NCBI GenBank assembly: GCA_902509905.1
Contig: CABWZI010000013.1
Location: 1-42,558, forward strand
Direction: 5' to 3'
DNA: 42,558 nucleotides
DNA from: an uncultured Gammaproteobacteria bacterium
Lineage (GTDB): Bacteria; Pseudomonadota; Gammaproteobacteria; PS1; Pseudothioglobaceae
Part shown: positions 3,081 to 36,491 of the stretch, piece by piece
Numbering within the stretch: the first letter of the stretch is position 1
Layout of the letters: every line of letters starts with the position of its first letter
Translations under genes and position numbers: made by a program
The notes under the pieces: generated by a model
Seen by the model: the letters and a program-made list of their open reading frames with translations, nothing else
The model's database searches: none
Told to the model about the DNA's origin: nothing

Positions 3081-3104
3081 GGTATTAAGATCAGTATCTT
3101 AGTG
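3075..3104. terminator. Hairpin over the convergent purH and DDAH stop codons
   Basis: CACTAAG (3075-3081) pairs perfectly with CTTAGTG (3098-3104), and four further inner pairs (two A-U, two G-U) extend the stem to about 11 bp with an 8-base loop. It spans the stop codons of both convergent genes. There is no strong U-run on either side, so it may be a weak bidirectional terminator or an mRNA 3'-end stabiliser. Function is inferred from position. Confidence 0.45.
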
Positions 3105-3855: not shown

Positions 3856-3872
3856 AACAAGCCTTAATAGTT

Positions 3873-5051: not shown

Positions 5052-5057
5052 TATTTT

Positions 5058-7583
5058 TTATGATCTTAAACATTCGTTATTAGGATCAAAAGGTGACTCA
5101 TCAATCACAATCGATTTGTACTTTTCACCTAAAATTTCGATCTCGAGTTCAGTTCCAACTGCTGTCAGATCTTTTCTAACTATGCCCAGTGCTAGTGACT
5201 TGCCACAGCGCCATCCATAGCCCCCTGAAGTACCTCTTCCAACAACCATACCATCTTTATAAATGGCCTCTGAGCCTCTAGCATCAGCATCAGTCACTCC
5301 CAACACTTCCATAGTAACAAAGCCATTTATGGCTCCACGGTCCTGCCATTCTTTGAGAGCATTTTTACCAATGAAGTCAGCTTCTTTATCAAGCCTAACG
5401 AATCGATCCAGGCCTGACTCATACGCAGAGTATTCAATTGACATTTCTCTCGGAATTAATCGATATGACTTTTCAAGTCGCATACTATCCATTGCACGAA
5501 TTCCAAATGGTTTAATATCAAACTCCGCTCCGGCTTCCATGACTTGATCAAAAATATAGTTTTGCATCTCGATTGGGTGGTGAAGCTCCCAGCCAAGTTC
5601 ACCAACAAAGTTAACACGAAGAGCCTCTGCAGAAGCATAGCCTACGTTTATTTTCTTACCAGTCAGCCACTTAAAATTTTCATTAGACAAATCAGTGTCT
5701 GTAAGTTTTTGCAGCACATCACGAGATCTAGGGCCTGCAAGAACTAAAACACCAGTCTGAGTTGTGACTCTCTGAACGCTTACGTTTCCATCTTTTGGCG
5801 CAAGTTTAAATAGATAGTCGTGGTCGTGTGTTTCAAAGGCACCAGCGGAGACTAGATAATAGCTTTGTGGACCAGTCTTATAGACAGTAAACTCAGCTCT
5901 AACTCCTCCGTTCAAAGATAACATATGAACCAGACTTATTCTGCCAATAGATTGGGGCATCTTGTTAGCAAAAATAGACTCAAGCCACTCCTCTGCTCCA
6001 GGACCTTTAACAATGCATTTAGCAAAGGCGGACATATCTAGAAGTCCGACCTTCTCATTAACGTGCTTGCATTCGTTCCCGACATGTTCAAAGTAATTTG
6101 AACGTCTAAATGAATTTTTCTCTACAATTCGACCGTCCTCTAATGCCTTTGAATGGTTTTTATTCAAGTAAACCTTTTCTGGATCCTCTTGATTTAACTC
6201 TTCAGCACTGAGGGAATAATCAAGGCTAGGCATAAACCAATTAGGTCGTTCCCATCCATAAACTGATCCAAATACAGCTCCAAGAGCTTTCATTCGATCA
6301 TAGCATGGTGCAGTTTTAAGTGGTCTAGCAGCGCTGCGCTCTTCATCAGGATAATGAGTTGTAAAAACATTTGCATAGGCCTCTTCATTTTTTTCTTTAA
6401 GGTAGCCTCTAGTTGCATAAGGACCAAATCGTCGTGGGTCAACACCCATCATGTCAACTGTTGGTTCTCCGTCAACAATCCACTCAGCTAACTGCCAACC
6501 AGCACCGCCAGCGGCAGTTATTCCAAAACTGTGGCCTTCGTTAAGCCAGAAATTCTTTAAACCAGGCGCTGGACCAACTATTGGATTACCATCTGGGGTG
6601 TATGCGATAGCACCATTATAGATATCTTTGATTCCAACCTCTCCAAAGGCGGGCACTCGACTAATGCAGCGATCAATATGCGGCATAATGCGGTCCAACT
6701 CGCCGTTAAATAATTCATATTGGCAATCTTTGCTCGGACCATCGACATAACACGCTGGCGCTCCTTTTTCATAAATACCCAGAATCATTCCTCCAGCCTC
6801 TTCTCGCAAGTAATATGCTGAATCAGATTCACGAAGAACGGCCATTTCAGGCAAACCTTGTTTTTTTCTTTCCATGATTTCTGGATGCTGCTCTGTAACT
6901 AAGAATTGGTGTTCAACTGGAATGACAGGAACATCAAGGCCAACCATCTCTCCTGTTTTTCTTGCAAAACTCCCAGTACAAGATACAACATGTTGACATG
7001 AAATATCGCCCTTGTCAGTTGAAACAACCCAGCTTTGATCCTTTTGCTGCTGAATGCCTTCTACCAAAGTATGCTCATATATTTCAGCACCCCTATTTCT
7101 TGCGCCCTTGCAAAGAGCTTGGGTTAAATCTGCTGGTTGAATATAACCATCATCTGGATGCTGTATTGCGCCAACTAGTCCTTCAGTATTACAAAGTGGC
7201 CAAACCTCTTTAACTTCATCTGGGGTCAGAAATTTAACATCTACACCCACAGTACTTCCAACTCCTGAGTAGTATTTATACTCATCCATTCTGTCTTGAG
7301 AATTCGCAAGACGAATATTAGAAACAACACTAAACCCAACGTTCATCCCTGTTTCTTTTTCAAGATCGTGATAAAAGTCGACAGAATATTGGTGAAGTTT
7401 TCCTACCGAGTAGCTCATATTGAATAATGGCAGTAATCCAGCTGCATGCCAAGTGGATCCAGATGTTAAATCCTTACGCTCAACTAAAACCACATCAGTC
7501 CAGCCTTTCTTAGCTAAATGATAGAGCGTTCCTGCACCTACCACACCGCCACCAATGACAACTACTTGTGCTTTATTTTTCAT
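5058..7583 (-). CDS. Dimethylglycine/sarcosine dehydrogenase-like FAD- and folate-binding enzyme
   Basis: Oxidative N-demethylation of a small N-methyl amine such as dimethylglycine or sarcosine, passing the methyl carbon to tetrahydrofolate. The 841-aa protein has an N-terminal DAO-type FAD domain with VVVIGGGVVGAG (residues 7-18). H46 in STWHAAGL is the position that carries covalent FAD in DMGDH and SARDH. An FAO_M-like linker and a C-terminal GcvT-like folate domain (RAMDSMRLEKSYR and a GRGTSGGYGW region) follow. First gene of the operon with the amidohydrolase and DDAH, with GGATAGG upstream of its ATG. Exact substrate (dimethylglycine, sarcosine or another) cannot be read from sequence. 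Confidence 0.9.
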   Translation of the reverse strand: MKNKAQVVVIGGGVVGAGTLYHLAKKGWTDVVLVERKDLTSGSTWHAAGLLPLFNMSYSVGKLHQYSVDFYHDLEKETGMNVGFSVVSNIRLANSQDRMDEYKYYSGVGSTVGVDVKFLTPDEVKEVWPLCNTEGLVGAIQHPDDGYIQPADLTQALCKGARNRGAEIYEHTLVEGIQQQKDQSWVVSTDKGDISCQHVVSCTGSFARKTGEMVGLDVPVIPVEHQFLVTEQHPEIMERKKQGLPEMAVLRESDSAYYLREEAGGMILGIYEKGAPACYVDGPSKDCQYELFNGELDRIMPHIDRCISRVPAFGEVGIKDIYNGAIAYTPDGNPIVGPAPGLKNFWLNEGHSFGITAAGGAGWQLAEWIVDGEPTVDMMGVDPRRFGPYATRGYLKEKNEEAYANVFTTHYPDEERSAARPLKTAPCYDRMKALGAVFGSVYGWERPNWFMPSLDYSLSAEELNQEDPEKVYLNKNHSKALEDGRIVEKNSFRRSNYFEHVGNECKHVNEKVGLLDMSAFAKCIVKGPGAEEWLESIFANKMPQSIGRISLVHMLSLNGGVRAEFTVYKTGPQSYYLVSAGAFETHDHDYLFKLAPKDGNVSVQRVTTQTGVLVLAGPRSRDVLQKLTDTDLSNENFKWLTGKKINVGYASAEALRVNFVGELGWELHHPIEMQNYIFDQVMEAGAEFDIKPFGIRAMDSMRLEKSYRLIPREMSIEYSAYESGLDRFVRLDKEADFIGKNALKEWQDRGAINGFVTMEVLGVTDADARGSEAIYKDGMVVGRGTSGGYGWRCGKSLALGIVRKDLTAVGTELEIEILGEKYKSIVIDESPFDPNNECLRS

Positions 7584-22173: not shown

Positions 22174-23583
<1,410 letters not shown>

Positions 23584-23644
23584 TCATATCAAAAAGGATA
23601 AAATTATACTCTATTTATTTAATCACCTTATATTCAGTAAAGTT

Positions 23645-26203
23645 ATGAAAGAAGCTTATCTAAAGCATTGCAATGAAAGAGAGTCAGAAAACCTTCCCCC
23701 TTTGGCTCTCAACGCCAAACAAACAAAATCAGTAGTTGAATGCCTTTTAGAGGGCAATGGTGATGATTTTTATTTGAATCTTCTAACGCATAGAGTGCCC
23801 CCAGGGGTTGATGAGGCAGCATACGTCAAAGCAGGCTTTCTCACTAGTGTCGCTAAGGGTGAAGAAATATGCAACGCCATTTCAAAAAAACATGCTACCT
23901 TCCTATTAGGAACGATGCTTGGTGGCTATAGTATTGCATCGTTAATCGACCTTCTTGATGAAGAGGAAACTGCTGAGGCAGCCTGTGAGGCCCTTTCGCA
24001 CACCATTCTAATTTACGAAGCGCATCAACAAATCCTAGAAAAGTCCTCAAGCAACTCGTATGCCAAAAAAATTGTTGATTCATGGGCATCGGCAGATTGG
24101 TTCACATCGAAAGAGCCACTTCCTGAAAGCATCAAAGTGACTGTTTTTCGCGTAGATGGTGAAACCAATACAGATGACCTGTCTCCAGCAACTGAGGCCT
24201 GGTCACGACCTGATATTCCGCTTCATGCGAAAGCGATGCTCATTAAGAAAATGGATAGGCCTCTTGAAAAAATTGAAGAACTTAAGCAAAAAGGTCTTCC
24301 TTTAGCCTATGTAGGCGATGTAGTTGGTACTGGCTCTTCAAGAAAATCAGCCATTAACTCAGTATTATGGCATATGGGAGAACCAATAGACTATATCCCA
24401 AACAAAAATAGTGGTGGAATAGTGCTTGGTGGAAAGATTGCTCCAATCTTTTTTAACACTGCAGAAGATTCTGGTGCGCTTCCAATACAGTGCGATGTTT
24501 CTGAACTGAATATGGGAGATGAAATTACAATATTTCCATATGAGGGCGTTATTAAAGATGCGTCTGGAAAAGTTGTCTCAAAGTTTGATCTTGCTCCTAG
24601 CACGATGCCAGATGAAGTCAGGGCAGGCGGCAGGATTCCTCTTATTATTGGTAGAGGTCTGACCGATAAAACAAGATCTGAACTAGGGCTTGATGTCAGT
24701 GATGTCTTTCTTCGTCCGGTTGATCCAAAGAACAGCGAATTAGGATTTACCTTGGCTCAAAAAATTGTGGGTAAAGCTTGTGGCGTAAAGGGCATTCGAC
24801 CTGGAACGTATTGTGAACCCCGAATGAGCACCGTTGGATCCCAAGACACAACAGGTGCAATGACTCGTGACGAACTAAAGGAGTTAGCCTGTTTAGGGTT
24901 TTCAGCAGACCTTGTGATGCAGAGTTTTTGTCATACAGCTGCTTATCCAAAACCGATTGACCTTGAACTTCAACATACACTGCCAGATTTTATGCATTCT
25001 CGGGGTGGTGTCTCTCTAAAACCTGGAGACGGTATTATTCACTCGTGGCTGAATCGTATGCTTCTTCCTGACTCAGTTGGAACTGGAGGAGATTCACACA
25101 CACGCTTCCCAATAGGAATTAGCTTTCCAGCAGGCTCTGGACTCGTCGCATTTGGAGCATCCATTGGCGTACTGCCTCTTGACATGCCTGAGTCTGTGTT
25201 GGTCAGATTTAAAGGTGATATGCAGCCAGGAATAACTCTAAGAGATTTAGTCAATGCAATCCCTTATGTTGCTATCCAAAAAGGACTACTAACTGTTGAT
25301 AAATCTAACAAAAAGAATATTTTCTCTGGTCGCGTTCTCGAAATTGAAGGGCTTGGTGACCTTAAAGTTGAACAAGCATTTGAACTTGCAGATGCTACTG
25401 CTGAGCGTTCAGCAAATGGCTGCACTGTCAAACTAAATAAAGAACCTATTCAGGAATATCTTAACTCTAATATTACACTTCTTGGCTCTATGATTGACTC
25501 CGGATATGACGATAAAAAAACAATAGCAAAGAGGATCCAGGACATGAAAAAATGGCTTGATAATCCTGAGCTTCTTGAAGCTGATGAAGACTGCGAGTAT
25601 GCAGAAGTAATCGAGATAGATCTTGCAGAAATTAAAGAACCTATATTGGCATGTCCTAATGATCCAGATGATGTCAGACTTCTCTCATCAGTAGCCAAAA
25701 CCTCTATCGATGAAGTCTTTATAGGGTCTTGCATGACTAACATTGGGCACTTTAGAGCAGCAGCTCAGCTTCTCAAAGATAAATCTGAGCTGAATACTGT
25801 TTTGTGGGTAGTGCCGCCAACAAGGATGGATGAAAAACAGTTAAGGGCAGAAGGAATTTATGAGACATTTGAGCGCCTGACAGACAGAACTGAGGTCCCT
25901 GGTTGCTCCCTCTGTATGGGAAATCAAGCCAGGGTAGAAGAAGGTGCGTCAGTTGTATCTACGTCCACAAGGAACTTCCCTAACAGACTCGGCGACAACA
26001 GTGACGTTTTCTTGGCCTCTGCAGAAGTTGCTGCTATCTCAGCAAAATTAGGCTACATTCCTACACCTGAGGAGTACCTATCTTTAATGAAAGATATTGA
26101 ACCTTTGTCTGGTGAAATTTATCAATACCTAAACTTTGATCAGATTGCAGATTACCAAGAGTCTTCATCTAATGTTCCTCTCGAAGTAATTCTCCAAAGC
26201 TAA
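23645..26203 (+). CDS. acnB: Aconitate hydratase B
   Basis: [4Fe-4S] enzyme of the TCA cycle interconverting citrate and isocitrate, also active on 2-methylisocitrate. The 852-aa product starts at ATG 23645; the frame is open 43 codons further upstream, but that part is AT-rich, lacks family homology and would run into the purB 5' end. The N-terminal HEAT-like domain starts [27 protein letters not shown]-style (position 1-27), and cluster ligands are in [14 protein letters not shown] and [12 protein letters not shown] (CxxC). [13 protein letters not shown] is the substrate region. A bidirectional terminator follows. Confidence 0.96.
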
Positions 26204-26218
26204 ATAATAGGCAATAAA

Positions 26219-26243
26219 AAAGCCGCATAATGCGGCTTTTTTT
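26219..26243. terminator. Bidirectional intrinsic terminator between acnB and rpmG
   Basis: The hairpin AGCCGCA-taa-TGCGGCT (26221-26237) is followed by a run of Ts in the plus direction and preceded by As that become a U-run in the minus direction. It therefore can end both the acnB transcript and the convergent rpmB-rpmG transcript. Confidence 0.9.
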
Positions 26244-26258
26244 AAATCCTATCTTAAA

Positions 26259-26414
26259 TTACTTGATTTTGGCTTCCTTATACATCACGTGCTTTCTAAC
26301 GACTGGATCGAATTTTTTGACTTCAACCTTCTCTGGATGAATTCTTTTATTTTTTGTTGTAGTGTAGTAGTGACCAGTGTCAGCTGAAGAAACTAGTTTA
26401 ATTTTCTCTCTCAT
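26259..26414 (-). CDS. rpmG: 50S ribosomal protein L33
   Basis: A 51-aa basic ribosomal protein, translated here by hand: begins [19 protein letters not shown], continues [17 protein letters not shown] and ends MYKEAKIK. The Cys pairs of zinc-type L33 are absent, as in E. coli L33. It lies ten bases after rpmB, the conserved rpmB-rpmG order. It is short enough to be missed by ORF length cut-offs. Confidence 0.96.
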
Positions 26415-26424
26415 AAATTACTCC

Positions 26425-26661
26425 TTATACCTTTTCGCCGCGACCACGGATCTCTTCTAAAACGGCATCGATACCCTTCTTGTCAATGACACGAAGGCCG
26501 CGTGCTGATAATTTAAGCTTAACAAAGCGGTTTTCAGCTTCAACCCAAAAACGGTGCGTGTGAAGGTTTGGATAAAAACGGCGACGCGTTTTATTGTTAG
26601 CATGCGAAACGTTATTTCCGCTTATTGGTCTCTTACCAGTTACTTGACATACTTTAGACAT
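26425..26661 (-). CDS. rpmB: 50S ribosomal protein L28
   Basis: A 78-aa ribosomal protein: [20 protein letters not shown], then [20 protein letters not shown] and [10 protein letters not shown], all typical of the 78-aa proteobacterial L28. First gene of the rpmB-rpmG unit; a perfect TATAAT lies on the minus strand at 26700-26695, about 35 bases upstream, probably its -10, though the -35 is poor. Confidence 0.97.
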
Positions 26662-26709
26662 TACGACTACCTAATGAATTTCTAAAAAGTGAGAATTATA
26701 CGCAAAAAA

Positions 26710-26738
26710 TTGTAGTTTTTTTAAATAAATTTTATATA
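26710..26738 (+). promoter_or_regulatory. Candidate promoter of tRNA-Ser
   Basis: TTGTAG (26710-26715) and TATATA (26733-26738) are 17 bases apart. The predicted start near 26745 would leave a leader of about 29 bases before the tRNA. The region is very AT-rich, so chance matches are likely. Confidence 0.35.
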
Positions 26739-26773
26739 CTTTATGCATAAAAACGGTATCATACCAATCTTTT

Positions 26774-26863
26774 GGAGGGATGGCAGAGCGGTTGAATGCA
26801 CTGGTCTTGAAAACCAGCAAGGGCTAATACCCTTCCAGGGTTCGAATCCCTGTCCCTCCACCA
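26774..26863 (+). tRNA. tRNA-Ser (UGA)
   Basis: A class II tRNA with long variable arm. The acceptor GGAGGGA (26774-26780) pairs with TCCCTCC (26853-26859), then A and an encoded CCA (26861-26863). The anticodon arm reads CTGGT-CTTGAAA-ACCAG, giving anticodon UGA. The variable arm AAGGGCTAATACCCTT forms a hairpin, and the T arm has GGTTCGAATCC. It closely follows E. coli serT, including the GGTTGAAxGCAC D-arm. No other tRNA is adjacent. Confidence 0.97.
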
Positions 26864-26956
26864 TTAAATGTCTTTTTTTAATCCGTCCTCATTTTAACAA
26901 TTACAAACTACCTCATCCCTTGAGAGGTTTGTGAAAAATAAGAAAAATTAATAGAT

Positions 26957-27631
26957 ATGGCAATAAATTACAAAGCAATACTCTTTGGATCTATAGGAAC
27001 AATAGTTGAAACTTCTGAGCTTCAGCTCAGATCCTTTAATCAAGCTTTTTCTGAAGCAGGCCTTGACTGGAATTGGTCAATTGAAGAATATCAAACAATG
27101 CTCAAAAAGTCTGGTGGACGAAATCGTATCAATGATTTTGCAAATCAACGTGGAATCAAGGTCAATGCTAGTGAACTTCATCTAAGAAAAACTGAGATCT
27201 TTGACAGCATGATGAGTGATGAAAAAATCTCACTTCGTCCTGGAGTAGCTAACTTGATTAATTATGCTCATGAAAATAGTATTTATTTAGCATTCGTGAC
27301 TAGCACTTCTGAAGCCAACATTGATGCTATGTTCTTTGCGCTTGATAATCAAATTAAAAAAAGTGACTTTAGCTTCATAGGAAATGACAAGATTGTTTCT
27401 CAGCCTAAGCCTAACTCTGAAATTTACCTTAAAGCGCTCTCTGAACTTAACTTAAGTGCAGATGAATGTATTGCAATAGAGGACACCGAAGTCAGCATGA
27501 GCTCGGCAATTGACGCAAACTTGAAATGTATTGCATTTCCTGGAGCACTTGCTCATGACAACAACTTTAGTAATGCTCACCTTGTTACTGAAGATCTTTC
27601 ACCAAATCTTTTATTTGAAAATCAGATTTAG
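26957..27631 (+). CDS. HAD-superfamily protein lacking the catalytic aspartates
   Basis: Overall a CbbY/beta-phosphoglucomutase-like HAD fold: motif II around VTSTSEAN (T115-S116), motif III Lys in SQPKPNSEIYLKA (K151) and motif IV IEDTEVSM (E175-D176). Motif I, normally DxDGT, reads ILFGSIGTIVETSE, so the nucleophile Asp is Gly11 and the second Asp is Ile13. Ordinary HAD phosphatase chemistry should be impossible. The ORF is full length (224 aa) with no frameshift, so it looks like a maintained pseudoenzyme rather than a decayed gene. The next genes are glnK-amtB; whether related is unknown. Confidence 0.8.
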   Translation: MAINYKAILFGSIGTIVETSELQLRSFNQAFSEAGLDWNWSIEEYQTMLKKSGGRNRINDFANQRGIKVNASELHLRKTEIFDSMMSDEKISLRPGVANLINYAHENSIYLAFVTSTSEANIDAMFFALDNQIKKSDFSFIGNDKIVSQPKPNSEIYLKALSELNLSADECIAIEDTEVSMSSAIDANLKCIAFPGALAHDNNFSNAHLVTEDLSPNLLFENQI

Positions 27632-27681
27632 CATCAAAAAAAAATCTAATAATCTATAATAGACTTGCAGCTGCAATGAAG

Positions 27682-27697
27682 TGGCTGTTTTTTAGCA
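27682..27697 (+). promoter_or_regulatory. Sigma-54-like promoter upstream of glnK-amtB
   Basis: TGGCTG (27682-27687), six Ts, then AGCA place GG at 27683-27684 and GC at 27695-27696, the exact -24/-12 spacing of sigma-54 promoters, though the -12 element is imperfect (AGC instead of TGC). glnK-amtB is classically NtrC/sigma-54 controlled. The site sits between inverted repeats AGCTGCA (27670-27676) and TGCAGCT (27699-27705). A sigma-70-like TATAAT is also present at 27655-27660. Confidence 0.45.
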
Positions 27698-27737
27698 ATG
27701 CAGCTTCCAAGGAGCCAATGTCGGATATTATTCCAAG

Positions 27738-28115
27738 ATGTCTACGGAAGATATTAATAGTTCAAGGAAGATAAAAGTGAAATTAGTTACAGCAATTTTA
27801 AGGCCCGAAAACCTAGATAAAGTTAGAGAGGCTCTTTGTGATGTCGATATTCCAGGCATGACAGTAACTGAAGTTAAAGGCTTTGGAAAACAAAAAGGTC
27901 ACACGGAGTTATATCGTGGTACTGAGTTTACCGTTGAATTTGTTCACAAAGTAAAACTTGAAATTGCAATCTCAAATAAAAATTTGGATCTGCTAATTAA
28001 TACAATTAGCGATATCGCTCGCTCCGGAAAAAAAGGTGATGGCAAAATCTTTGTCACTGACATCGAAAAAGTAGTTCGTATTCGCACAGGCGAAACGGAC
28101 CACGACGCACTTTAG
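27738..28115 (+). CDS. glnK: PII nitrogen-regulatory protein (GlnK-like), T-loop Tyr51 replaced by Phe
   Basis: Trimeric sensor of ATP/ADP and 2-oxoglutarate that gates AmtB. From GTG 27777, which has AAGGAAG upstream, the product is the standard 112 aa; the ATG at 27738 would add 13 residues. Conserved parts are REAL, GMTVTEVKGFGKQKGHTELYRG and the C-terminal GKIFVTDIEKVVRIRTGE-type signature. Numbering from GTG 27777 as in E. coli GlnB, position 51, the uridylylated Tyr, is Phe (RGTEF); Tyr46 remains. GlnD-type control therefore seems lost while the ligand and AmtB contacts remain. amtB starts nine bases after its stop. Confidence 0.94.
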   Translation: MSTEDINSSRKIKVKLVTAILRPENLDKVREALCDVDIPGMTVTEVKGFGKQKGHTELYRGTEFTVEFVHKVKLEIAISNKNLDLLINTISDIARSGKKGDGKIFVTDIEKVVRIRTGETDHDAL

Positions 28116-28124
28116 GAGAGCTCA

Positions 28125-29396
28125 ATGAAAAAATTTATACTATTGGCTTTATTGCCAATGACTGCCTTTGCGGACGTCATAAATGGCGCCGATACTGCCT
28201 GGATCATGACATCTACTGCCCTAGTCTTGTTTATGACGCTTCCAGGATTGGCACTTTTTTATGGCGGACTTGTCCGCTCAAACAATATTCTATCCGTCCT
28301 GATGCAATGTTTTGCCATTGCTGGAATTGTTAGCATGTTATGGTTTATTGCTGGATACAGCATTGCATTCTCGGGTGATAACCCATTTATAGGAAACTTA
28401 TCTAACTTTATGTTAGCCCAAGTCACTATAGACAGTGTCAGTGGCTCAATTCCAGAGTCCCTCTTTGCAATGTTTCAGATGACATTTGCCATTATAACGC
28501 CTGCCCTTATCGTGGGTGGCTTTGCAGAGAGAATGAAGTTCTCTGCTGTACTGTTATTTAGTAGCATTTGGTTATTTGTCGTTTATGCTCCAATTACTCA
28601 CTGGGTATGGGGCGGCGGATGGCTTGGCGATACCCTGGATTATGCTGGCGGAACAGTCGTTCACATAACAGCAGGTGTTGCTGCTTTGGTCGCAGCTATT
28701 GTACTTGGTCCAAGACAGGAATTTCTTAAAAAGCCAATTCCACCTCACAATATGACTATGACTTTTATAGGCGCTGCAATGCTTTGGGTAGGATGGTTCG
28801 GCTTCAATGGTGGCTCTGCACTCTCTGCTGGTGGAGATGCTGCAATGGCAATCCTTGCTACTCATATCTCTGCAGCAGCAGGTGCTATGACCTGGATGTT
28901 CTATGAATGGATTAAATTTGGAAAACCAACCGCACTCGGTTCAGTAACAGGTATGGTTGCAGGACTTGGAACCATTACTCCTGCCTCTGGCTTTGTGGGA
29001 CCTGCTGGAGCCTTAGTGATTGGAATTATTGCTGGTGCTGTATGTTTCAATGCTGTCATCATGATCAAACAAAAATTCAAGATTGATGACTCTCTTGACG
29101 TGTTTCCAGTTCATGGCGTTGGAGGTATATGTGGAACAATTTTGGTTGGATTTTTTGCATCGAAAGAGCTTGGAATTTTTTCAGGCCAAGGTGGCTGGAG
29201 TCATGAAGCGATTGTGATTAGTGATCAACTACAGATTCAATTAACAGCTGTTGTGGCTACTGCAGTCTATACAGCTCTCGCAACATTCGTGATTCTTAAA
29301 ATTGTTGATGTAGTGACTGGATTGAGAGTGGATTCACAGACTGAAACTCAAGGTCTTGACCTTGATAGCCACGGAGAGACGGGATACAACCTTTAA
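28125..29396 (+). CDS. amtB: Ammonium transporter
   Basis: Trimeric inner-membrane ammonium channel. The 423-aa precursor has an N-terminal signal peptide (MKKFILLALLPMTAFA) and about 11 membrane helices. The twin pore histidines lie in YAPITHWVWGGGWL and DVFPVHGVGGICGT, and the signature DYAGGTVVHITAGVAALVAA is intact. The C-terminal tail ends LDLDSHGETGYNL, the normal PII-interacting region. It has GGAG upstream and is cotranscribed with glnK, indicating scavenging of low ammonium. Confidence 0.97.
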   Translation: MKKFILLALLPMTAFADVINGADTAWIMTSTALVLFMTLPGLALFYGGLVRSNNILSVLMQCFAIAGIVSMLWFIAGYSIAFSGDNPFIGNLSNFMLAQVTIDSVSGSIPESLFAMFQMTFAIITPALIVGGFAERMKFSAVLLFSSIWLFVVYAPITHWVWGGGWLGDTLDYAGGTVVHITAGVAALVAAIVLGPRQEFLKKPIPPHNMTMTFIGAAMLWVGWFGFNGGSALSAGGDAAMAILATHISAAAGAMTWMFYEWIKFGKPTALGSVTGMVAGLGTITPASGFVGPAGALVIGIIAGAVCFNAVIMIKQKFKIDDSLDVFPVHGVGGICGTILVGFFASKELGIFSGQGGWSHEAIVISDQLQIQLTAVVATAVYTALATFVILKIVDVVTGLRVDSQTETQGLDLDSHGETGYNL

Positions 29397-29421
29397 TCCT
29401 AGCCTCTTAAGTAAAGAAACT

Positions 29422-29447
29422 AAAAGCCGGCATTTGCCGGCTTTTTT
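29422..29447 (+). terminator. Intrinsic terminator of glnK-amtB
   Basis: An 8-bp GC-rich stem, AGCCGGCA with TGCCGGCT (29425-29442), is followed by six Ts, about 30 bases after the amtB stop. Classic rho-independent form. Confidence 0.92.
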
Positions 29448-29520
29448 ACTATGAAAAAAATTTAATAGAATGATAAAAAAACCTATAATAAAATTTCCTT
29501 GAAAAATTCATTACTTATTT

Positions 29521-30123
29521 ATGCGCTTTAAATCCATTTATAAAAATAAATTAAATCATTTTTTAACTCTAGTTCTCATGTCTTTATCAATGCTCGCATT
29601 CAACACTCAGACTTTTGCAGATGAGGAGACTCTCTCTTATCCATTTAATGCTGACAGTGGTAGGTACTGGCAATATGTCAGCGATCGCGTAATGGGTGGA
29701 GTCTCAGATGGTCAAGTCTCACTTGAGCAAGACGGAGAAATGTATTATGCGAGACTTACAGGGAACGTTAGCACCGCAAATAATGGTGGCTTCATACAGT
29801 TGCGGGCCAGTGTCTCATTCGCAAACTCAGAAAAAGAGGGAAAAAACCTTCAAGGTGTTCGTCTTAACGTAAGAGGCAATGGAGAAACCTACTACATACA
29901 TATCAGAACCAATGAGAGCTGGTCTCCATCTGATTACTATGCCACAACTTTTAAAGCTGATGCGGATTGGAAAATGATTGATCTACCTTTTAGTTCATTT
30001 AAAAGAAGATGGTCAAAAGACTCGGTTTTAGATCCAAAAAAAATTAGAAGCTTTGGAATTGTTGCTTATGGCAGAGACCATGTGTCTGACATTTCAGTAT
30101 CAACCTTAGAGTTTTACTATTAG
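29521..30123 (+). CDS. CIA30-family protein, probably exported
   Basis: A 200-aa protein with an N-terminal signal peptide (hydrophobic stretch LVLMSLSMLAF, likely cleavage after TFA, residue 33). The rest is a beta-sandwich resembling NADH:ubiquinone oxidoreductase intermediate-associated protein 30 (PF08547): YWQYVSDRVMGGVSDGQ, NGGFIQLRA and IRSFGIVAYGRD are the recognisable parts. The bacterial function is unknown and export argues against complex I assembly. Single gene between the amtB terminator and convergent aroQ. Confidence 0.8.
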   Translation: MRFKSIYKNKLNHFLTLVLMSLSMLAFNTQTFADEETLSYPFNADSGRYWQYVSDRVMGGVSDGQVSLEQDGEMYYARLTGNVSTANNGGFIQLRASVSFANSEKEGKNLQGVRLNVRGNGETYYIHIRTNESWSPSDYYATTFKADADWKMIDLPFSSFKRRWSKDSVLDPKKIRSFGIVAYGRDHVSDISVSTLEFYY

Positions 30124-30148
30124 GAATTTAAGTAGCTATTTTTCTAAT

Positions 30149-30592
30149 CTAGTTTACCTTGATTGGTAACTCTGATAACAAGTCGATTACATGACTATAG
30201 CCATCCGCACCAAGGCCAGCAACAACAGAATCAACTGCCGAAGAAATAAAAGAAACGTGGCGAAATGATTCACGCAGATGTGGATTGGAAATGTGTAACT
30301 CAACCTTGTAACCTGAATATGACTTTAATGCATCATGAATCGCAATTGATGTATGAGTATATGCAGCAGCATTGATTACAATCGCATCTACTTTCTGCAT
30401 AATTGCATCTTGGATCCATTCTACAATCTCGCCCTCATAGTTAGACTGCATAAATTTAACAATATGGCCATCTTTTGATGCTTTTTCTTGGCAATCTATA
30501 GCAATACCTTCTAGAGTATCTCTGCCATAAATTTCAGGCTCACGCGTACCTAAAAGATTTATGTTTGGACCATTTATGACGTATATATTCAT
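30149..30592 (-). CDS. aroQ: Type II 3-dehydroquinate dehydratase
   Basis: Third step of the shikimate pathway, trans-dehydration of 3-dehydroquinate. The 147-aa dodecameric-type protein keeps the active-site set: INGPNINLLGTREPEIYG (Asn, Arg and Tyr of the lid), INAAAYTHTSIAIHDAL (Asn, His), VELHISN (Glu, His) and ESFRHVS (Arg). Its ATG follows directly on the TAA of an upstream paralogue, so translation is probably coupled. The common accBC partner is not here. Confidence 0.95.
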   Translation of the reverse strand: MNIYVINGPNINLLGTREPEIYGRDTLEGIAIDCQEKASKDGHIVKFMQSNYEGEIVEWIQDAIMQKVDAIVINAAAYTHTSIAIHDALKSYSGYKVELHISNPHLRESFRHVSFISSAVDSVVAGLGADGYSHVIDLLSELPIKVN

Positions 30593-31057
30593 TTATTGAT
30601 TGCTTAGTTTTTTGTTAATTGACCGAATAGCCAGCACGTAACCATGCTTACCAAGTCCGCCAATAAAGCCTAACCCACTCTCAGGGACTTGCAAAGGCTT
30701 ACTGACATTCCGCTTGAAGATATTTTCTATACGGACTTCAATAACTGGCTTACTTTGATTGCTAATTTCACTAATTGCTGAACTAAAAGCATCGTAATTT
30801 ATCACTGATGATTTTGAGAGTGCAGCTGGATTAATTATGAAAGCATCAAAATTATTAATATCATTAATCAAGCCACTCAAAAGCTCAGATTCATCATCAT
30901 TTTGACGAAAATCCACTTCGAGACCAAATTTACCTGAAGTCTCAATGCATTTTTGCTCTATAACAGACAAAGATAAGTCATAATTAGCTACCTCATTATG
31001 ATCACTTAAATCTGATAATCCAGGTCCATTTATTATTAATAATTTACCGTTACTCAT
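30593..31057 (-). CDS. Divergent AroQ paralogue, catalytic residues lost
   Basis: A 154-aa protein alignable with the downstream AroQ over its full length: LLIINGPGLSDL versus IYVINGPNINLL, FIINPAALSKSSVINYDAF versus IVINAAAYTHTSIAIHDAL, VIEVRIEN versus VELHISN. The lid Arg/Tyr motif (LGTREPxxYG) has become LSDHNEVANYD, the THT His is Lys-Ser, the HISN His is Arg, and the FRH Arg region is changed. The first Asn of GPN is Gly. Dehydratase activity is therefore unlikely. The frame is intact and it abuts aroQ (TAA then ATG), so a heteromer subunit or regulator is possible (inference). Confidence 0.8.
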   Translation of the reverse strand: MSNGKLLIINGPGLSDLSDHNEVANYDLSLSVIEQKCIETSGKFGLEVDFRQNDDESELLSGLINDINNFDAFIINPAALSKSSVINYDAFSSAISEISNQSKPVIEVRIENIFKRNVSKPLQVPESGLGFIGGLGKHGYVLAIRSINKKLSNQ

Positions 31058-31131
31058 TTATTGATTTAGTCCATCATTTTATAAAATTAACAAATATTCC
31101 GTGCAATAACGCCTATCTAACACTCTGGGAT

Positions 31132-31160
31132 ATTATATATACCTCAAGGTTTAATGTATA
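31132..31160 (-). promoter_or_regulatory. Candidate promoter of the aroQ pair
   Basis: On the minus strand TATACA (31160-31155) and a perfect TATAAT (31137-31132) are 17 bases apart, about 75 bases upstream of the first ATG. It lies in the 157-base gap after the tmpB-like gene. That gap also holds the imperfect hairpin ACTCTTT-cA-AAAGAGT (about 31174-31190), possibly the end of the oxygenase transcript. Confidence 0.4.
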
Positions 31161-31214
31161 TGGGCTTAATCTTACTCTTTTGAAAGAGTCTAGTTAAGAA
31201 CTAAATTTATATAG

Positions 31215-31778
31215 TTAATTTTTGACTAAAGAGTCAATTAATGGGCGGTAGTATGAAAATGGAGGATGTTCTCTATCTGGATCTTTCCCCTCTTCATCCC
31301 AATATCTTAAATTTATGCAGTGATCTAAATAATCATTATTTTCAAATTCTTCTATTTCTTTCTCATTCATTGGGCCGCCCTGAAGATTAAGAGTATGAAC
31401 TGAGGCTGCAGATAGGCGCTCAAAATAATCTGCTTTAACTGCACACAAATAACGTTTTGCTGCAACATGCTGACGAATCGGTTCGACAACGGAAGCCGGG
31501 AAATATTCTTCCAGAAAATTAGCGCCTGCCTCCTCATGAAAGTTATTCACTCCCTTTGCCAAAGATGAGTCAGGAATTTCGTTTTTGTAATGACCTATAT
31601 CATGAAGAAGAGCTGCCACTATTTGAGCACTATCAGCGCCAGCCTTTTCAGCGCATTGAGCTGTTTGAAGCATATGCTGTGCCATCGTGACCTTTTCACC
31701 AAGGTATGATTCAGCGCCTCGCCTTAGAAAAATATCTTCAATAAGGTCTACAACATTTTTCGAAGTAATCTGACTCAT
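31215..31778 (-). CDS. HD-domain mixed-valent di-iron oxygenase, TmpB/PhnZ-like
   Basis: Predicted to cleave the C-P bond of a 1-hydroxy-phosphonate with O2, releasing phosphate. The 187-aa protein has the iron ligands H35, H59, D60, H81, H104 and D161, matching PhnZ (H34, H58, D59, H80, H104, D161 from memory). The Tyr-x-x-Glu gate is YLGE (Y25, E28), and HVAAKRYL (K108) and R158 in the substrate pocket are also kept. The LNLQGGPMNEKE stretch resembles PhnZ closely. It overlaps the upstream dioxygenase by four bases. PhnZ acts on hydroxylated 2-aminoethylphosphonate, TmpB on its N-trimethyl form; pairing with a TmpA-type partner favours the latter. Confidence 0.85.
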   Translation of the reverse strand: MSQITSKNVVDLIEDIFLRRGAESYLGEKVTMAQHMLQTAQCAEKAGADSAQIVAALLHDIGHYKNEIPDSSLAKGVNNFHEEAGANFLEEYFPASVVEPIRQHVAAKRYLCAVKADYFERLSAASVHTLNLQGGPMNEKEIEEFENNDYLDHCINLRYWDEEGKDPDREHPPFSYYRPLIDSLVKN

Positions 31779-32905
31779 TTATTTTTTCCTTCTAATGTAT
31801 TTAGGAGACTATAAAGTCCATCTAAATCACTGTAGGCTCCTTGAAGGTGACGCTTGCCAGTTTTTGAAAACTTAGTTCTGGCATGCATAACTCGAGTGTT
31901 ATCAAACAGCATTAAGTCGCCCTCAGAGAGCCTAAACTGAATCTTCAACTCGTCTCTCTCAATGACCTCACTCCAGTGACGATACGCCTTATAAAAAGAT
32001 CTCATTTTATCTTTTGGCACTTTAATTGTATCAATAGAACGGTTGTTGTATCTGACCTTAATGATTTCATTGTTGTCGTTTAGCTCTATCATTGGCACCC
32101 TTGAGCGAAGATCAGTTTTAGAATCAGTAAACCGATAATTAATCCAACTACTTGTCAAAGTCAGAAAGTTCTCTTTACTTTCATCACGAAGAATTGAGGC
32201 TGCCTTGAATCCATCAACCAAGATCGAATCACCGCCCTCGGTAGAGCTCTCGAGACAATGCAGCAGCTGCACCGTTGGGACAGGGTCTCGGTATGGATTA
32301 TCAGTGTGGGAGCCAAGCCCTAGATTGGTATAAGCAAGATTGTTTGGATTAACTTCAGTTCTCACCTCAAAAAGAGCTCCATAGTTGGTCTCACGTGTGT
32401 ATCCGATTTTACTTATGACTTTTAGTACTTGACCTTCAACACTAGGAACACCTTTGATAACAAAGAATCCTATCTCTCTTAATGATCGAAGCGCAGATAA
32501 CTGCGTATCACTCTTATCTATAGAGTCATAGTTAATGAAAGGAAGTCCAGCCTCAAAACTATTTTTTTGCCAGAGCTTTTTTTGTTTCTCGCTCCTGTCT
32601 TCAAAGTGATCATTGAGGTCATAGCAATTGGAGAGCAGCCAATCTTGCGTAAAGACTGATAAATGATTTTCAGGCTGAAATAGGATACAAACATCTCCGT
32701 TTTCATCCATATAAGCCTCCTCTATGGATACATCTACAGGTAAGTCTTTCACACTAAAGAGTCTTTGGCCATTATTTTCGTTTCTTGATTCAGGCATCTG
32801 GCAGTGATCCCTGAGCCAGTAGCTAAAGAGTGAGCTTTTATTCCCATCATTCCAGTCAATCACTAACTCGTCGCTGACTATAGAAATTTTTTTGATTAAG
32901 TCGAT
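31775..32905 (-). CDS. Gamma-butyrobetaine-hydroxylase-like Fe/2-oxoglutarate dioxygenase, TmpA-like
   Basis: Predicted to hydroxylate a quaternary-amine substrate next to its phosphonate. Numbered from GTG 32863 (362 aa), the N-terminal DUF971-like domain has SYWLRDHC but lacks the full CxC-x2-C zinc set of human BBOX1. The TauD-type domain has H186-x-D188 (GLGSHTDNPYRDP), H327 (NTRVMHARTKF) and R338 for 2-oxoglutarate. GTG is the only canonical start, but upstream codons read DLIKKISIVSDELVIDW, which looks like the family's first strand. An ATC at 32905-32903, four bases after GGGGA, would include it; coordinates assume that. Alternative roles: carnitine synthesis, less likely beside an HD oxygenase. 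Confidence 0.78.
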   Translation of the reverse strand: MDLIKKISIVSDELVIDWNDGNKSSLFSYWLRDHCQMPESRNENNGQRLFSVKDLPVDVSIEEAYMDENGDVCILFQPENHLSVFTQDWLLSNCYDLNDHFEDRSEKQKKLWQKNSFEAGLPFINYDSIDKSDTQLSALRSLREIGFFVIKGVPSVEGQVLKVISKIGYTRETNYGALFEVRTEVNPNNLAYTNLGLGSHTDNPYRDPVPTVQLLHCLESSTEGGDSILVDGFKAASILRDESKENFLTLTSSWINYRFTDSKTDLRSRVPMIELNDNNEIIKVRYNNRSIDTIKVPKDKMRSFYKAYRHWSEVIERDELKIQFRLSEGDLMLFDNTRVMHARTKFSKTGKRHLQGAYSDLDGLYSLLNTLEGKNK

Positions 32906-32948
32906 TCTATCCCCTTCATGTATAAAGCATTAACACTTCAGATTGGCT

Positions 32949-33824
32949 CTACATTGCCATGTTTTTACTTTTGGATTGTTGGCCAAAGAATGAGACCTCT
33001 TTAGGATACTCTGGCAACTCAACACTATAACTAGTGCACCTGACAGTTCCAGTTTCTTTTCCTCTAACAACCATTCCAACGAGCTCACTAGGCAGGTGAT
33101 TTGGCGACAGAGCCACTGCATCCTCAGCCTTATAAGTTACTATAAACAGGGATCTTGAATGGGCTGATAAATTAGGCGCTGAACCATGCAGTAACTTTGA
33201 ATGCATGAGGCAAGCAGAGCCCGCCTTTCCAGTACACTTTATAGCCTTGTTCTTGTTCGACTCCATAACTTTGTCATCAACTGCACCTGTAAAAATACCA
33301 TTCTGCCAATGAGAGTGGAGTGGTCCATTATGTGTCCCTGGGACGACCTCTAATGGCCCATTATCCAGAGTTACATCATCCAAAAAATACAGGACAGTCA
33401 TGATATCTTCATTTGAATGCGGCTCAAAAGGAAAGTCCTGATGAAACTTTACTTCGGTACCAGCACCAGGCAACTTAAGATTTATTTTGTTTCCCAAATG
33501 AGTGATATTTGGACCAAAGATTTCAGAAACTAAATCCAGTGCACTATTGTCTTTGACAACATCCAGACAAATATCAGAAATCTCTGCTGGGGAAGTTATT
33601 CTTCTAACCGCAGGTGCTTCAGGCGAGTGTGTTATTGGCTCAAGATCAAATCGAGGTCTGCCGTCCATGATTCTGCCGAAAGGCTCTTTATATTTTTTGC
33701 TCTCCTCAACCCACTTGGCTAGCTCAGAATTTAGTGATGCGAGTTGTTCACTGGTAATGGCGTTGTCAAAGAAGAGGTAACCATCCCTATGAAACTGGTC
33801 AATTAAGTCTTTATTTTCATGCAT
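32949..33824 (-). CDS. PhyH-family Fe(II)/2-oxoglutarate dioxygenase
   Basis: Phytanoyl-CoA-dioxygenase-fold enzyme of unknown substrate. The start is the ATG at 33824, with GGAG seven bases upstream (291 aa); the frame continues 12 codons further but without a better site. Iron ligands are the HxD of VKFHQDFPFEPH and the distal His of LLHGSAPNLSAHSRSL, with the 2-oxoglutarate Arg in HSRSLFIV. PhnY, which hydroxylates 2-aminoethylphosphonate, belongs to this superfamily, as does ectoine hydroxylase. First gene of the cassette; the second oxygenase follows after a 43-85 base gap, depending on that gene's start. Confidence 0.82.
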   Translation of the reverse strand: MHENKDLIDQFHRDGYLFFDNAITSEQLASLNSELAKWVEESKKYKEPFGRIMDGRPRFDLEPITHSPEAPAVRRITSPAEISDICLDVVKDNSALDLVSEIFGPNITHLGNKINLKLPGAGTEVKFHQDFPFEPHSNEDIMTVLYFLDDVTLDNGPLEVVPGTHNGPLHSHWQNGIFTGAVDDKVMESNKNKAIKCTGKAGSACLMHSKLLHGSAPNLSAHSRSLFIVTYKAEDAVALSPNHLPSELVGMVVRGKETGTVRCTSYSVELPEYPKEVSFFGQQSKSKNMAM

Positions 33825-33914
33825 ATCAAGTCTCCAAAACGCATTATGTACCAAACTCAAGAAAAAATAAAGAAAAATTTAATGGTTGATTAGAAAGAAT
33901 ATAAAATTATCATC

Positions 33915-34355
33915 ATGGAAATGCTATTTGAAAATTTAAACTTTATGCACTGGCTCGTTCTTGGGCTTTCGCTTATCATCCTTGAGCTTTTTTTGTGGAC
34001 AGTCTTTATGCTCTGGATCGGAGCCTCTGCAATTACAGTTAGTATCTTTTTCTACCTTATGCCAGATACTTCATGGCCAATACAGCTTCTCATTTTCGTT
34101 ATACTCTCTTTAACTACAACCAGCCTTGCAAAACGTTACTACCCCGTGAAAACTGTTGATGATGAGTTGCACGAAAAAGCTAAAACCTACATCGGAAAAG
34201 AGTGCAAGGTCAGCTCCATTGAGAATGGTAGTACCAAGGTTCAGATAGGAAAGTCACTTTGGTTTGCTAAGGGACAAAATCTAAGCATCGGGCAGACAGT
34301 TAAAATAATTAATGTCGAATCTTCGACCTTCATTGTTGAACCAGTCGACTCTTAA
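33915..34355 (+). CDS. NfeD-family membrane protein
   Basis: A 146-aa protein with an N-terminal membrane region of two to three helices (about residues 10-75: MHWLVLGLSLIILELFLWTV and a later IQLLIFVILSLTT) and a C-terminal OB-fold-like domain (GKECKVSSIENGSTKVQIG and GQTVKIINVESSTFIVEP). This is the short NfeD type that usually pairs with an SPFH/stomatin protein; no such gene is adjacent. Divergent from the oxygenase cassette and convergent with pyrE. Confidence 0.88.
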   Translation: MEMLFENLNFMHWLVLGLSLIILELFLWTVFMLWIGASAITVSIFFYLMPDTSWPIQLLIFVILSLTTTSLAKRYYPVKTVDDELHEKAKTYIGKECKVSSIENGSTKVQIGKSLWFAKGQNLSIGQTVKIINVESSTFIVEPVDS

Positions 34356-34360
34356 TTAGG

Positions 34361-35002
34361 TTAGCTGATTCCGTACTGAGACCTGTAGCTCTCTATATCA
34401 CTTAGGACCTTTGAGTCATTGCTTGATCTAAGATAATCTATGATTTGTGACAGATTAATGATGCTCAAAACTGTCATTCCAAAAATCTGTTCAACCTCTT
34501 GTATAGCAGAGAGCTCTCCCTTACCTTTTTCTTGACGGTCAAGCGCCACAATAACTCCTTTGGCTTTAGCACCGCAATTGTTAATGATATCTTGGGCCTC
34601 TCGAATCGCAGTACCGGCTGTAATGACATCATCAATGATGAGGATGTCTCCCTCTAAAGGATGCCCAACGATACTTCCGCCCTCCCCATGATCTTTCACC
34701 TCTTTTCGGTTAAAGCTGTAAGGTACGCTTTGATTAAATTGATCATTCAGCGCGATAGAGGCTGCCGATGCTAATGGTATACCCTTGTAGGCAGGGCCAA
34801 ACAAGACATCAAACTTGAGACTACTTGCCACAATCGCATGGGCATAGAATTTTCCAAGTTCGGATAGATGACTCCCAGTATTGAAGAGACCTGCGTTGAA
34901 AAAATACGGACTCACCCTTCCAGACTTTAAAGTAAACTCACCAAACTTTAATACACCTGTTTCCAGTGTGAAGTCCACAAAATCCTTCTGATACTGTTCC
35001 AT
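34361..35002 (-). CDS. pyrE: Orotate phosphoribosyltransferase
   Basis: Makes OMP from orotate and PRPP in pyrimidine synthesis. From ATG 35002 (AGGA eight bases upstream) it is 213 aa, the E. coli length. The PRPP motif [14 protein letters not shown], the orotate region [16 protein letters not shown] and [11 protein letters not shown] with the catalytic flexible loop [15 protein letters not shown] are all intact. Divergent from xthA with 22 bases between the starts. Confidence 0.97.
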
Positions 35003-35024
35003 CAAATATTCCTAAACAATTAAA

Positions 35025-35798
35025 ATGAATGCAATGAGAATTATAACAATTAATGTCAATGGAATTCGTGCGGCTGAAAGAAAAGGCTTCTTCGATTGGC
35101 TAAAAAAACAAAACGCTGACGTTGTCTGCCTCCAAGAGATTAAGGCGCAAGAGGACCAGCTTGATGAGCGCTTTTATCCCGATGATATGCATACCTTTTA
35201 TCACAGCGCTGAGCGAAAAGGTTATAGCGGGACAGGCCTCTACTGTAAATCTAAGCCTGATAAGATTTCTTTCAGTCCTTGGGATGATATGAATTCGGAG
35301 GGTAGAATTATTCAGGCCGACTTTGGAAATCTCAGCGTGCTCTCAATCTATCTGCCTTCTGGTTCATCAAAAGAGGAGAGGCAAGCCCTAAAAATGGAGT
35401 TTATCTATGAACGTTTTCTACCTCACTTAAAAGACCTGCAGAAAGATGGAAGGAAATATATCATTTGTGGAGACTGGAACATCGCCCACAAAAAAATTGA
35501 TTTAAAAAATTGGCGTTCTAACCAGAAGAACTCAGGCTTTCTTCCAGAGGAGCGGGCATGGCTGGATATACTTTATGACGAGGTTGGGTATATCGATTCG
35601 TTCAGAGAAATTAATAATAAAGAGTTTCAGTACACCTGGTGGTCAAATAGAGGCCAGGCTTGGTTAAATAATACGGGTTGGAGACTGGATTATCAGGTGG
35701 TCAGTTCAAACCTTGTTGGAGCTGCGCACTCCTGCGAGATTTATAAGGATGAGCGCTTCTCAGATCACTCCCCTTTGACTATTGATTACCAAATATGA
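35025..35798 (+). CDS. xthA: Exodeoxyribonuclease III
   Basis: AP endonuclease and 3'-5' exonuclease of base-excision repair. The 257-aa protein has TINVNGIRAAERKGFFDWL, the catalytic Glu in VVCLQEIKA, the ICGDWNIAHKKIDLKNW nucleotide site, WRLDYQVVS and the terminal SDHSPL. A second in-frame ATG three codons in (35034) fits the family N-terminus equally well. It overlaps trmB by four bases (ATGA). Confidence 0.95.
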   Translation: MNAMRIITINVNGIRAAERKGFFDWLKKQNADVVCLQEIKAQEDQLDERFYPDDMHTFYHSAERKGYSGTGLYCKSKPDKISFSPWDDMNSEGRIIQADFGNLSVLSIYLPSGSSKEERQALKMEFIYERFLPHLKDLQKDGRKYIICGDWNIAHKKIDLKNWRSNQKNSGFLPEERAWLDILYDEVGYIDSFREINNKEFQYTWWSNRGQAWLNNTGWRLDYQVVSSNLVGAAHSCEIYKDERFSDHSPLTIDYQI

Positions 35799-36491
35799 CA
35801 GAGACAAAACATCATCGAAAAATTCAAAGCTTTGTAAAGCGCTCTGGAAGACTTTCGAAAGGGCAATCACTAGGACTCAATGAGCTATGGAGTGATTACG
35901 GGATTAACATAGCTAGTTCAACGCTGGACTTTGAAGAAATCTTTTCGAATCATAATGATGTTACCCTTGAGGTGGGTTTTGGGAATGGTGACAGCCTTCT
36001 TGAGATGGCCATAGAACAGCCTTACCAAAACTTTTTAGGTATTGAGGTTTATGAGGCTGGCGTTGGGAGACTGGTCAACGAGGCGAGCAAGAAGAGTATC
36101 AGTAACCTCAGGGTTATCAAGGAGGATGCGGTAGAAGTCCTTGAAAATAATATACCTAACAAAAGCATTTCCAATTTCCAACTATTTTTTCCTGATCCTT
36201 GGCACAAAAAGAGGCACCATAAGCGTAGAATTGTTCAAAAGAGTTTTTTTAGATCTGCTATCCAGAAAACTAAAAGATAGCGGAATGGTTCACATCGCTA
36301 CCGACTGGGAGGACTATGCGGAGCACATAATGGATACACTTGAATCTCACCCGCACTTTAAAAATCGCTCTGGAGACCATATGTACTCTGAAAGGCCTGA
36401 ATATAGGCCGCTTACAAAATTTGAAAATAGAGGTCAAAAATTGGGTCACGGAGTTTGGGATATTATCTTTACAAAAACAAAGGGAGGTTAA
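35795..36491 (+). CDS. trmB: tRNA (guanine-N7)-methyltransferase, broken by a +1 frameshift
   Basis: SAM-dependent m7G46 methylation of tRNA. Two frames together make one TrmB. The first (35795 to about 36250) has VTLEVGFGNGDSLLEMA for SAM and FFPDPWHKKRHHKRRIVQ. The second, one base later, continues FLDLLSRKLKDSGMVHIATDWEDYAEH and RPLTKFENRGQKLGHGVWD to 36491. The break is at the seven-T run 36244-36250; with six Ts the reading is continuous (VQKSFLDLLSRK). Left uncorrected, the first frame stops at 36280 and loses the C-terminal third. A sequencing error is more likely than a pseudogene, since the rest is undamaged. xthA overlaps it and fxsA follows at once. Confidence 0.93.

Follow-up and report, generated by a model that had tools for sequence, protein, structure and literature searches.

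Which pathway do three adjacent oxygenase genes of an uncultured marine gammaproteobacterium serve, and does the first of them take part in what the other two do? The window (the whole analysed stretch of 42,558 nucleotides (nt), contig CABWZI010000013.1 of assembly GCA_902509905.1, Pseudothioglobaceae) carries on its minus strand a cassette that begins with a PhyH-family gene (33824-32949, 291 amino acids (aa); Pfam PhyH E 5e-29) and continues with a TmpA-like gene (32863-31775, 362 aa, GTG start; Pfam TauD E 1e-44 and GBBH-like_N) and a TmpB-like gene (31778-31215, 187 aa; Pfam HD E 7e-8). The PhyH and TmpA genes lie 85 nt apart and TmpA overlaps TmpB by 4 nt, which is the arrangement, three co-oriented genes with a four-base overlap of the last two, that the first-pass annotation of this sequence had described. 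We consider it probable that the cassette combines a TmpAB pair for N-trimethyl-aminoethylphosphonate with PhyH as an ancillary methylated-amine oxygenase coupled to it; that TmpAB belongs, as a new member, to a known pathway can be predicted with high confidence. The three genes are probably co-transcribed.

Assignment of the TmpA-TmpB pair

For the HD protein, the nearest solved structure was TmpB (6npa, 192 bits, versus 122 for PhnZ). Its best NCBIfam scores were those of TmpB (261 bits), the general Phn-HD model (199) and methylphosphonate PhnZ1 (151.5). As these top three models all describe phosphonate HD oxygenases and no MIOX model was matched, identity as MIOX or as an ordinary HD hydrolase was rejected; the clustering with such enzymes that the first-pass annotation had envisaged as a refutation did not occur with these models. 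The diiron ligand set (H...HD...H...H...D) is complete, with H35, H59-D60, H81, H104 and D161, and a YxxE loop is formed by Y25 and E28; both features are described for PhnZ and TmpB in the excerpted text of PMC8177086. The hydroxylase gene expected beside a TmpB is present as the overlapping TmpA gene, and the two are fused in three relatives. A model search detected one TmpB copy in the genome of the window (1.52 Mb, 46 contigs, 89.6% complete), and a single-sequence scan found no viral carriage of TmpB. The TmpB tree, which was midpoint-rooted and weakly resolved outside the family, was therefore used solely for the cohesion of the 23 Thioglobaceae rows, which group together; rows paired with TmpA did not form one group, and L250-L254 entered as HD rows with only about 1.5 kb known around each. 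The HD protein is a TmpB-type diiron oxygenase, predicted to cleave the C-P bond to yield glycine betaine and phosphate.

The TauD-type protein is TmpA, the predicted 2-trimethylaminoethylphosphonate hydroxylase. Its nearest solved structure is TmpA itself (6npb, 317 bits, versus 181 for human gamma-butyrobetaine dioxygenase, BBOX), and it exceeded the curated cut-off of TmpA model NF049936 (426 bits, cut-off 400). The iron site consists of H186xD188...H327. In the 6npb alignment (with a six-residue chain offset), N175, N274 and R275 correspond to N187, N287 and R288 of TmpA, the residues given as phosphonate contacts in the excerpted text of PMC9296572. The N-[NSH]-R-S motif, which holds R288 of TmpA, was present in every one of the 42 TmpA rows that came from TmpB loci or from Thioglobaceae, and in none of three plasmid-borne BBOX-like rows without TmpB in their stretch and none of three TmpA2 rows. 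This set excluded matches shorter than 231 residues (L134, L238 and L248 among them), L063 yielded no row, and L247, missed by the pattern search itself, was counted by its printed NHRS. In the TmpA tree, 24 Thioglobaceae rows formed one group (SH-aLRT 98) adjoined by TmpB-paired TmpA of two other gammaproteobacteria; BBOX-like rows were placed elsewhere, with TmpA2, followed by two actinobacterial TmpA rows (the root is arbitrary). BBOX identity was rejected because of these residues, the TmpB neighbour and the tree. The oxidative phosphonate pair proposed by the first-pass annotation is thus borne out by nearest structures, model scores, phosphonate motif and TmpA tree. The start of TmpA must be regarded as provisional, since codons matching the N-terminus of longer homologues precede the GTG and no ATG, GTG or TTG occurs there before the next in-frame upstream stop.

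The reference system is the TmpA-TmpB pathway of Leisingera caerulea, reportedly characterised by Rajakovich et al. in 2019 (structures 6npb and 6npa). The window shares with it both enzymes, the two-gene order, the metal ligands, the YxxE loop and the phosphonate-binding residues, but it differs in its host (Pseudothioglobus), in the PhyH oxygenase placed ahead and in a TmpB that scores below the curated cut-off. Two alphaproteobacterial plasmid loci contain a LysR gene, one of them also a phosphodiesterase gene, whereas the window cassette has no LysR neighbour.

The PhyH clade and its linkage to TmpAB

The PhyH protein possesses the iron site H128xD130...H213 together with R224, so that all residues listed by the first-pass annotation (HxD...H in both dioxygenases, six ligands in the HD protein) were recovered. 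H128, D130, H213 and R224 are invariant across 33 aligned rows, comprising the window and 32 of 47 loci (L128, L145 and 13 within-genus loci were omitted, and L124 was trimmed at a stop). The only PhnY model matched, NF052437 (GIM8), gave 31 bits, while two PhyH proteins that have PhnZ-like partners scored 207 and 258 bits; the model's cut-off of 500 is reached neither by the window protein nor by these comparators. In a tree of 56 rows, the window PhyH belonged to a clade of 36 rows (SH-aLRT 97), outside of which three PhnZ-paired rows formed their own branch (SH-aLRT 96); the comparators in this tree are PhnZ-paired proteins, with no characterised sequence of the PhnY type acting on 2-aminoethylphosphonate (AEP) among them. 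On model scores and tree, PhnY identity was rejected. The closest relatives come from the PS1 clade, Candidatus Thioglobus and an uncultured gammaproteobacterium, and the best general matches include ectoine hydroxylase EctD/ThpD and human PhyH. The window protein shares the PhyH family with these two, but it misses the cut-off of ectoine hydroxylase model TIGR02408 (64 bits, cut-off 336.5), and neither the cassette nor the genes directly beside it showed an ectoine gene; the sole EctD row of the tree sits on a very long branch and its placement is unsure. PhyH is therefore not PhnY but belongs to an uncharacterised clade of Fe(II)/2-oxoglutarate oxygenases. With PhnY-PhnZ systems, which act on AEP or, in Gimesia maris, on methylphosphonate, the cassette has in common the logic of a dioxygenase followed by an HD diiron oxygenase, but its PhyH differs from PhnY by score and tree and its HD protein is nearer to TmpB.

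Within the genus, 29 genomes were sampled; most genomes in this and the following co-occurrence counts are metagenome-assembled or single-cell genomes. TmpB was detected in 23 of them and PhyH in 24: both were present in 22, TmpB only in one, PhyH only in two (in both of which PhyH is cut at a contig end) and neither in four. In 20 of the 22 genomes, that of the window included, PhyH precedes TmpA in one locus, with gaps of 77-111 nt in 18 loci and one inserted gene in the other two. TmpB comes next in all 20, truncated in two of them by a contig end. Across the family, every unfused locus with both genes (20 of 20) has TmpA overlapping TmpB by 4-14 nt (starts extrapolated). The cassette is not due to chance, because the order of PhyH and then TmpA is kept in these 20 genomes at 68-98% identity. 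As for the inserted genes, one encodes a HalD-family protein (L095:10330-11118) and the other a 324-aa protein without family match (L086:8100-9074), which recurs at 67% identity in genome G030.

Of the 47 PhyH loci found in a scan of 84,980 species genomes, 26 lie outside the genus. None of these 26 showed a TmpB-like frame within the surveyed stretches of up to 6 kb on each side, some of which are cut by contig ends; in one, a TmpA-like gene (25% identity) lies about 3 kb away. At the level of the genome, a TmpB-model match of at least 117 bits was found in 15 of the 26, and TmpA beside or fused to TmpB in 12, namely, going by the titles of their records, five Pseudomonadota and seven Actinomycetota, i.e. 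in two phyla. Two of these 12 are incomplete in one gene, the TmpA frame of L238 and the TmpB of L249 being partial; L075 stands for G450, with the same coordinates as G271. The total of 26 includes L145 (partial, absent from the tree) and L146 (placed outside the 36-row clade), neither of whose genomes has TmpAB.

Two samples allowed the association to be quantified, with p values not corrected for kinship. In the class sample of 368 genomes, which leaves out that of the window, PhyH (at least 380 bits) was found in four genomes, a TmpB-model match (at least 140 bits) in eight and both in two (Fisher p 0.002); TmpB accompanied by TmpA was present in five, two of which also carry PhyH, as compared with 12 of the 26 PhyH genomes outside the genus. 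The two genomes with both PhyH and TmpB share their genus with a third PhyH genome without TmpB. In the sampled actinobacterial order, HD matches of at least 117 bits occurred in 56 of 248 genomes. Counted irrespective of TmpA adjacency, they were present in 8 of 11 actinobacterial PhyH genomes, four of which are known to lie in this order, versus 53 of the 244 genomes of the order not known to carry PhyH (one-sided Fisher p 0.0006). In the genus, PhyH is thus genetically coupled to TmpAB; elsewhere, the link is a statistical association.

The neighbours of PhyH outside the genus point in a different direction from phosphonate hydroxylation. EutA-like proteins of the racemase family occurred in 14 of the 26 loci and M24 creatinase/DoeA-like hydrolases in 12; FAD-GcvT dehydrogenases and 4-hydroxyproline epimerase were each found in two loci, and M20, Rieske, arginase-family, DUF1989 and other genes in single or few loci. 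The PhyH gene of Curvivirga aplysinae (23336-24181 on a contig of 30.6 kb) is surrounded by a GcvA-like regulator, GcvP and GcvT, with TmpA-TmpB about 14 kb away, and in Roseovarius albus one FAD-GcvT gene adjoins TmpAB and another is one gene away from PhyH. L130, L133 and several other loci gave no hint of N-methyl or glycine metabolism among their neighbours. In the genus itself, an 811-aa FAD-GcvT protein and a 297-aa homocysteine S-methyltransferase are each encoded beside the cassette, on the opposite strand, in eight genomes. From these neighbours, N-methyl or glycine-type catabolism would be a more fitting role for PhyH than that of a phosphonate hydroxylase. Across L122-L144, PhyH recurs with the EutA-like gene, the M24 hydrolase and at times FAD-GcvT, a grouping that resembles ectoine-utilisation genes.

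Proposed pathway and its alternatives

From gene order, families, catalytic residues and linkage, we infer the following route, in which the substrate of PhyH is the most tentative element. TmpA would hydroxylate C1 of N-trimethyl-2-aminoethylphosphonate with Fe(II), O2 and 2-oxoglutarate, and the diiron HD oxygenase TmpB would then break the C-P bond of the product, releasing phosphate and glycine betaine. Glycine betaine would subsequently be demethylated towards glycine and one-carbon units. PhyH would most likely oxidise a methylated-amine compound of the same catabolism, either a precursor entering it or a betaine-type product leaving it. Ocean reads of mtgC, a gene of betaine demethylation, include Candidatus Thioglobus according to the excerpted text of PMC12478193.

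Several observations weigh against this proposal. i) With regard to TmpB, the score of 261 bits does not reach the curated cut-off of 300 of model NF049941, which is still the best model. ii) With regard to TmpA, the gamma-butyrobetaine dioxygenase model TIGR02409 (curated cut-off 414.75 bits) scored 477 bits and thus more than the TmpA model. iii) With regard to linkage, PhyH adjoins TmpAB in none of the 26 loci outside the genus. Within the genus it is separable from TmpAB, because in the three genomes with fused TmpA-TmpB it lies at a different site in two (adjoining trxB-like and ftsK-like genes, as judged by eye) and was not found in the third. iv) With regard to expression and context, Pho-box matches numbered five across the window versus 4.3 expected, with none inside the cassette, promoter and terminator scans scored no better than shuffles, and the genome of the window showed no close copies of the 811-aa and 297-aa proteins at its 89.6% completeness (best 37% and 26%).

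The TIGR02409 score could mean that the TmpA-like gene encodes a gamma-butyrobetaine dioxygenase and that the locus makes carnitine instead of degrading a phosphonate. This model is, however, not discriminating, because some TmpB-paired TmpA proteins pass its cut-off, others fail, and a BBOX-like protein fails as well. Three of five TmpB-paired TmpA proteins scanned passed (L083 with 478 bits, L076 with 421 and L259 with 417), L204 (395) and the short frame of L075 (337) did not, and neither did the BBOX-like L257 (321), which sits near choline-transport genes. The L259 protein (3938-5089, Phyllobacterium) is publicly annotated as gamma-butyrobetaine dioxygenase, although it is a clear TmpA (596 bits) whose gene overlaps an HD gene. 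The phosphonate-contact residues settle the conflicting scores in favour of TmpA; with the Asn-Arg motif present and TmpA overlapping or fused with TmpB, carnitine synthesis appears highly improbable. A different possibility is that PhyH acts as a second, PhnY-like hydroxylase whose alpha-hydroxyphosphonate is cleaved by the same HD enzyme, i.e. that two dioxygenases feed one HD protein, which the first-pass annotation had offered as one option. It would fit the position upstream of TmpA in 20 genomes, the PhyH type of PhnZ-paired PhnY enzymes and some substrate tolerance of PhnZ (excerpted text of PMC10574752). It is difficult to reconcile with the weak GIM8 score, the separate tree branch and the out-of-genus relatives that lack a TmpB-like frame alongside, and TmpB handles the unmethylated hydroxy-AEP inefficiently, as stated in the excerpted text of PMC11203657; we regard it as quite unlikely. 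The other suggestion of the first-pass annotation, a PhyH that removes an N-methyl or another group, fared better in that the neighbourhoods seem to fit it more closely than a PhnY-type feeder.

More weight must be given to the possibility that PhyH is an independent enzyme of methylated-amine or amino-acid catabolism, merely fixed beside TmpAB in one genus, and that the wider association reflects a shared lifestyle based on methylated compounds. The displaced or missing PhyH of the genomes with fused TmpAB would be in accord with this, as would the EutA-like and M24 neighbours elsewhere and the commonness of phosphonate HD matches in the sampled actinobacterial order. The retained position upstream of TmpA in 20 genomes and the enrichment of HD matches in actinobacterial PhyH genomes speak against it, and we hold independence to be possible rather than probable. 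As for the coupling of PhyH to TmpAB, which we prefer, a broader form can be put forward only tentatively and is, in our opinion, somewhat unlikely: the clade might supply N-trimethyl-aminoethylphosphonate catabolism with a third enzyme that has so far gone unrecognised and is conserved in Gammaproteobacteria, Alphaproteobacteria and Actinomycetota. This enzyme would either free the phosphonate from a natural conjugate or take a methyl group off the betaine product by oxidation.

The part that N-methylated phosphonates play in the marine phosphorus cycle is poorly charted, and the present data place TmpAB in 23 of the 29 genomes sampled from one marine genus. No report of TmpAB in this genus was found in the literature searched; the excerpted texts of PMC11933879 and PMC8748734 name other things. 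The substrate of the PhyH clade could reveal the natural form of these phosphonates or the use made of the betaine product.

Fusions and flanking genes

TmpA and TmpB were found fused into single bacterial proteins in both domain orders, with TmpA first or TmpB first. In L083, L084 and L085 (genomes G028, G030 and G015), a TmpA-TmpB protein of 569-587 aa is followed by a 432-aa methyltransferase-like gene, and nearby lie an MFS transporter gene and a second TmpA-like gene, TmpA2, which is devoid of the Asn-Arg-Ser motif. In actinobacterial L246, L247 and L248, single frames of 764-798 aa contain phosphodiesterase-family, TmpB and TmpA parts in this order and apparently represent a trifunctional phosphonate enzyme; the phosphodiesterase-family part was identified by Pfam in L248 and by eye in L246 and L247. 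The same three proteins are encoded by separate overlapping genes on Labrenzia plasmid L205. According to the excerpted text of PMC10574752, PhoF is a fungal PhnY-PhnZ fusion. The TmpA-TmpB fusions of the three relatives resemble it in joining hydroxylase and HD oxygenase in one chain, but they are bacterial and have a TauD-type hydroxylase, and the window copy is unfused.

The 432-aa protein occurred in 7 of 83 genomes of the order, always adjoining TmpB and once cut by a contig end (L080:9712-11010, L081, L083, L084, L085, L088 and L091), and was not found in the genome of the window. It matched a methylcobalamin:coenzyme M methyltransferase model weakly (E 4e-4), had no Pfam relative and gave only spurious matches in a PDB search. 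A paralogue (47%) is present elsewhere in G006, and L124 ends, about 6 kb from PhyH, in a fragment that resembles the protein (43%).

No transporter or regulator adjoins the window cassette, in agreement with the first-pass annotation. It is flanked upstream by a divergent NfeD-like gene outside the cassette (33915-34355, plus strand) and downstream, on the minus strand, by AroQ2 (30593-31057) and its tandem partner AroQ (30149-30592). AroQ2 is a degenerate paralogue of type II dehydroquinase, and there is no evidence for a role in the cassette. It lacks the NLLGxREPxxYG loop and the HLRExFRH segment, which we take to be catalytic parts of this enzyme; as both are lost and the gene is nevertheless kept in 11 aligned loci, AroQ2 can be considered a conserved pseudoenzyme. 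A scan of positions 26000-36000 for RNA elements returned a tRNA (26774-26860) as its sole match. The genome of the window has other FAD-GcvT paralogues, one of them in the window itself (5058-7583). It belongs to a likely operon on the minus strand (3091-7583), together with an M20 hydrolase and a protein of the DDAH/arginine-deiminase family, which is a candidate for methylarginine catabolism.

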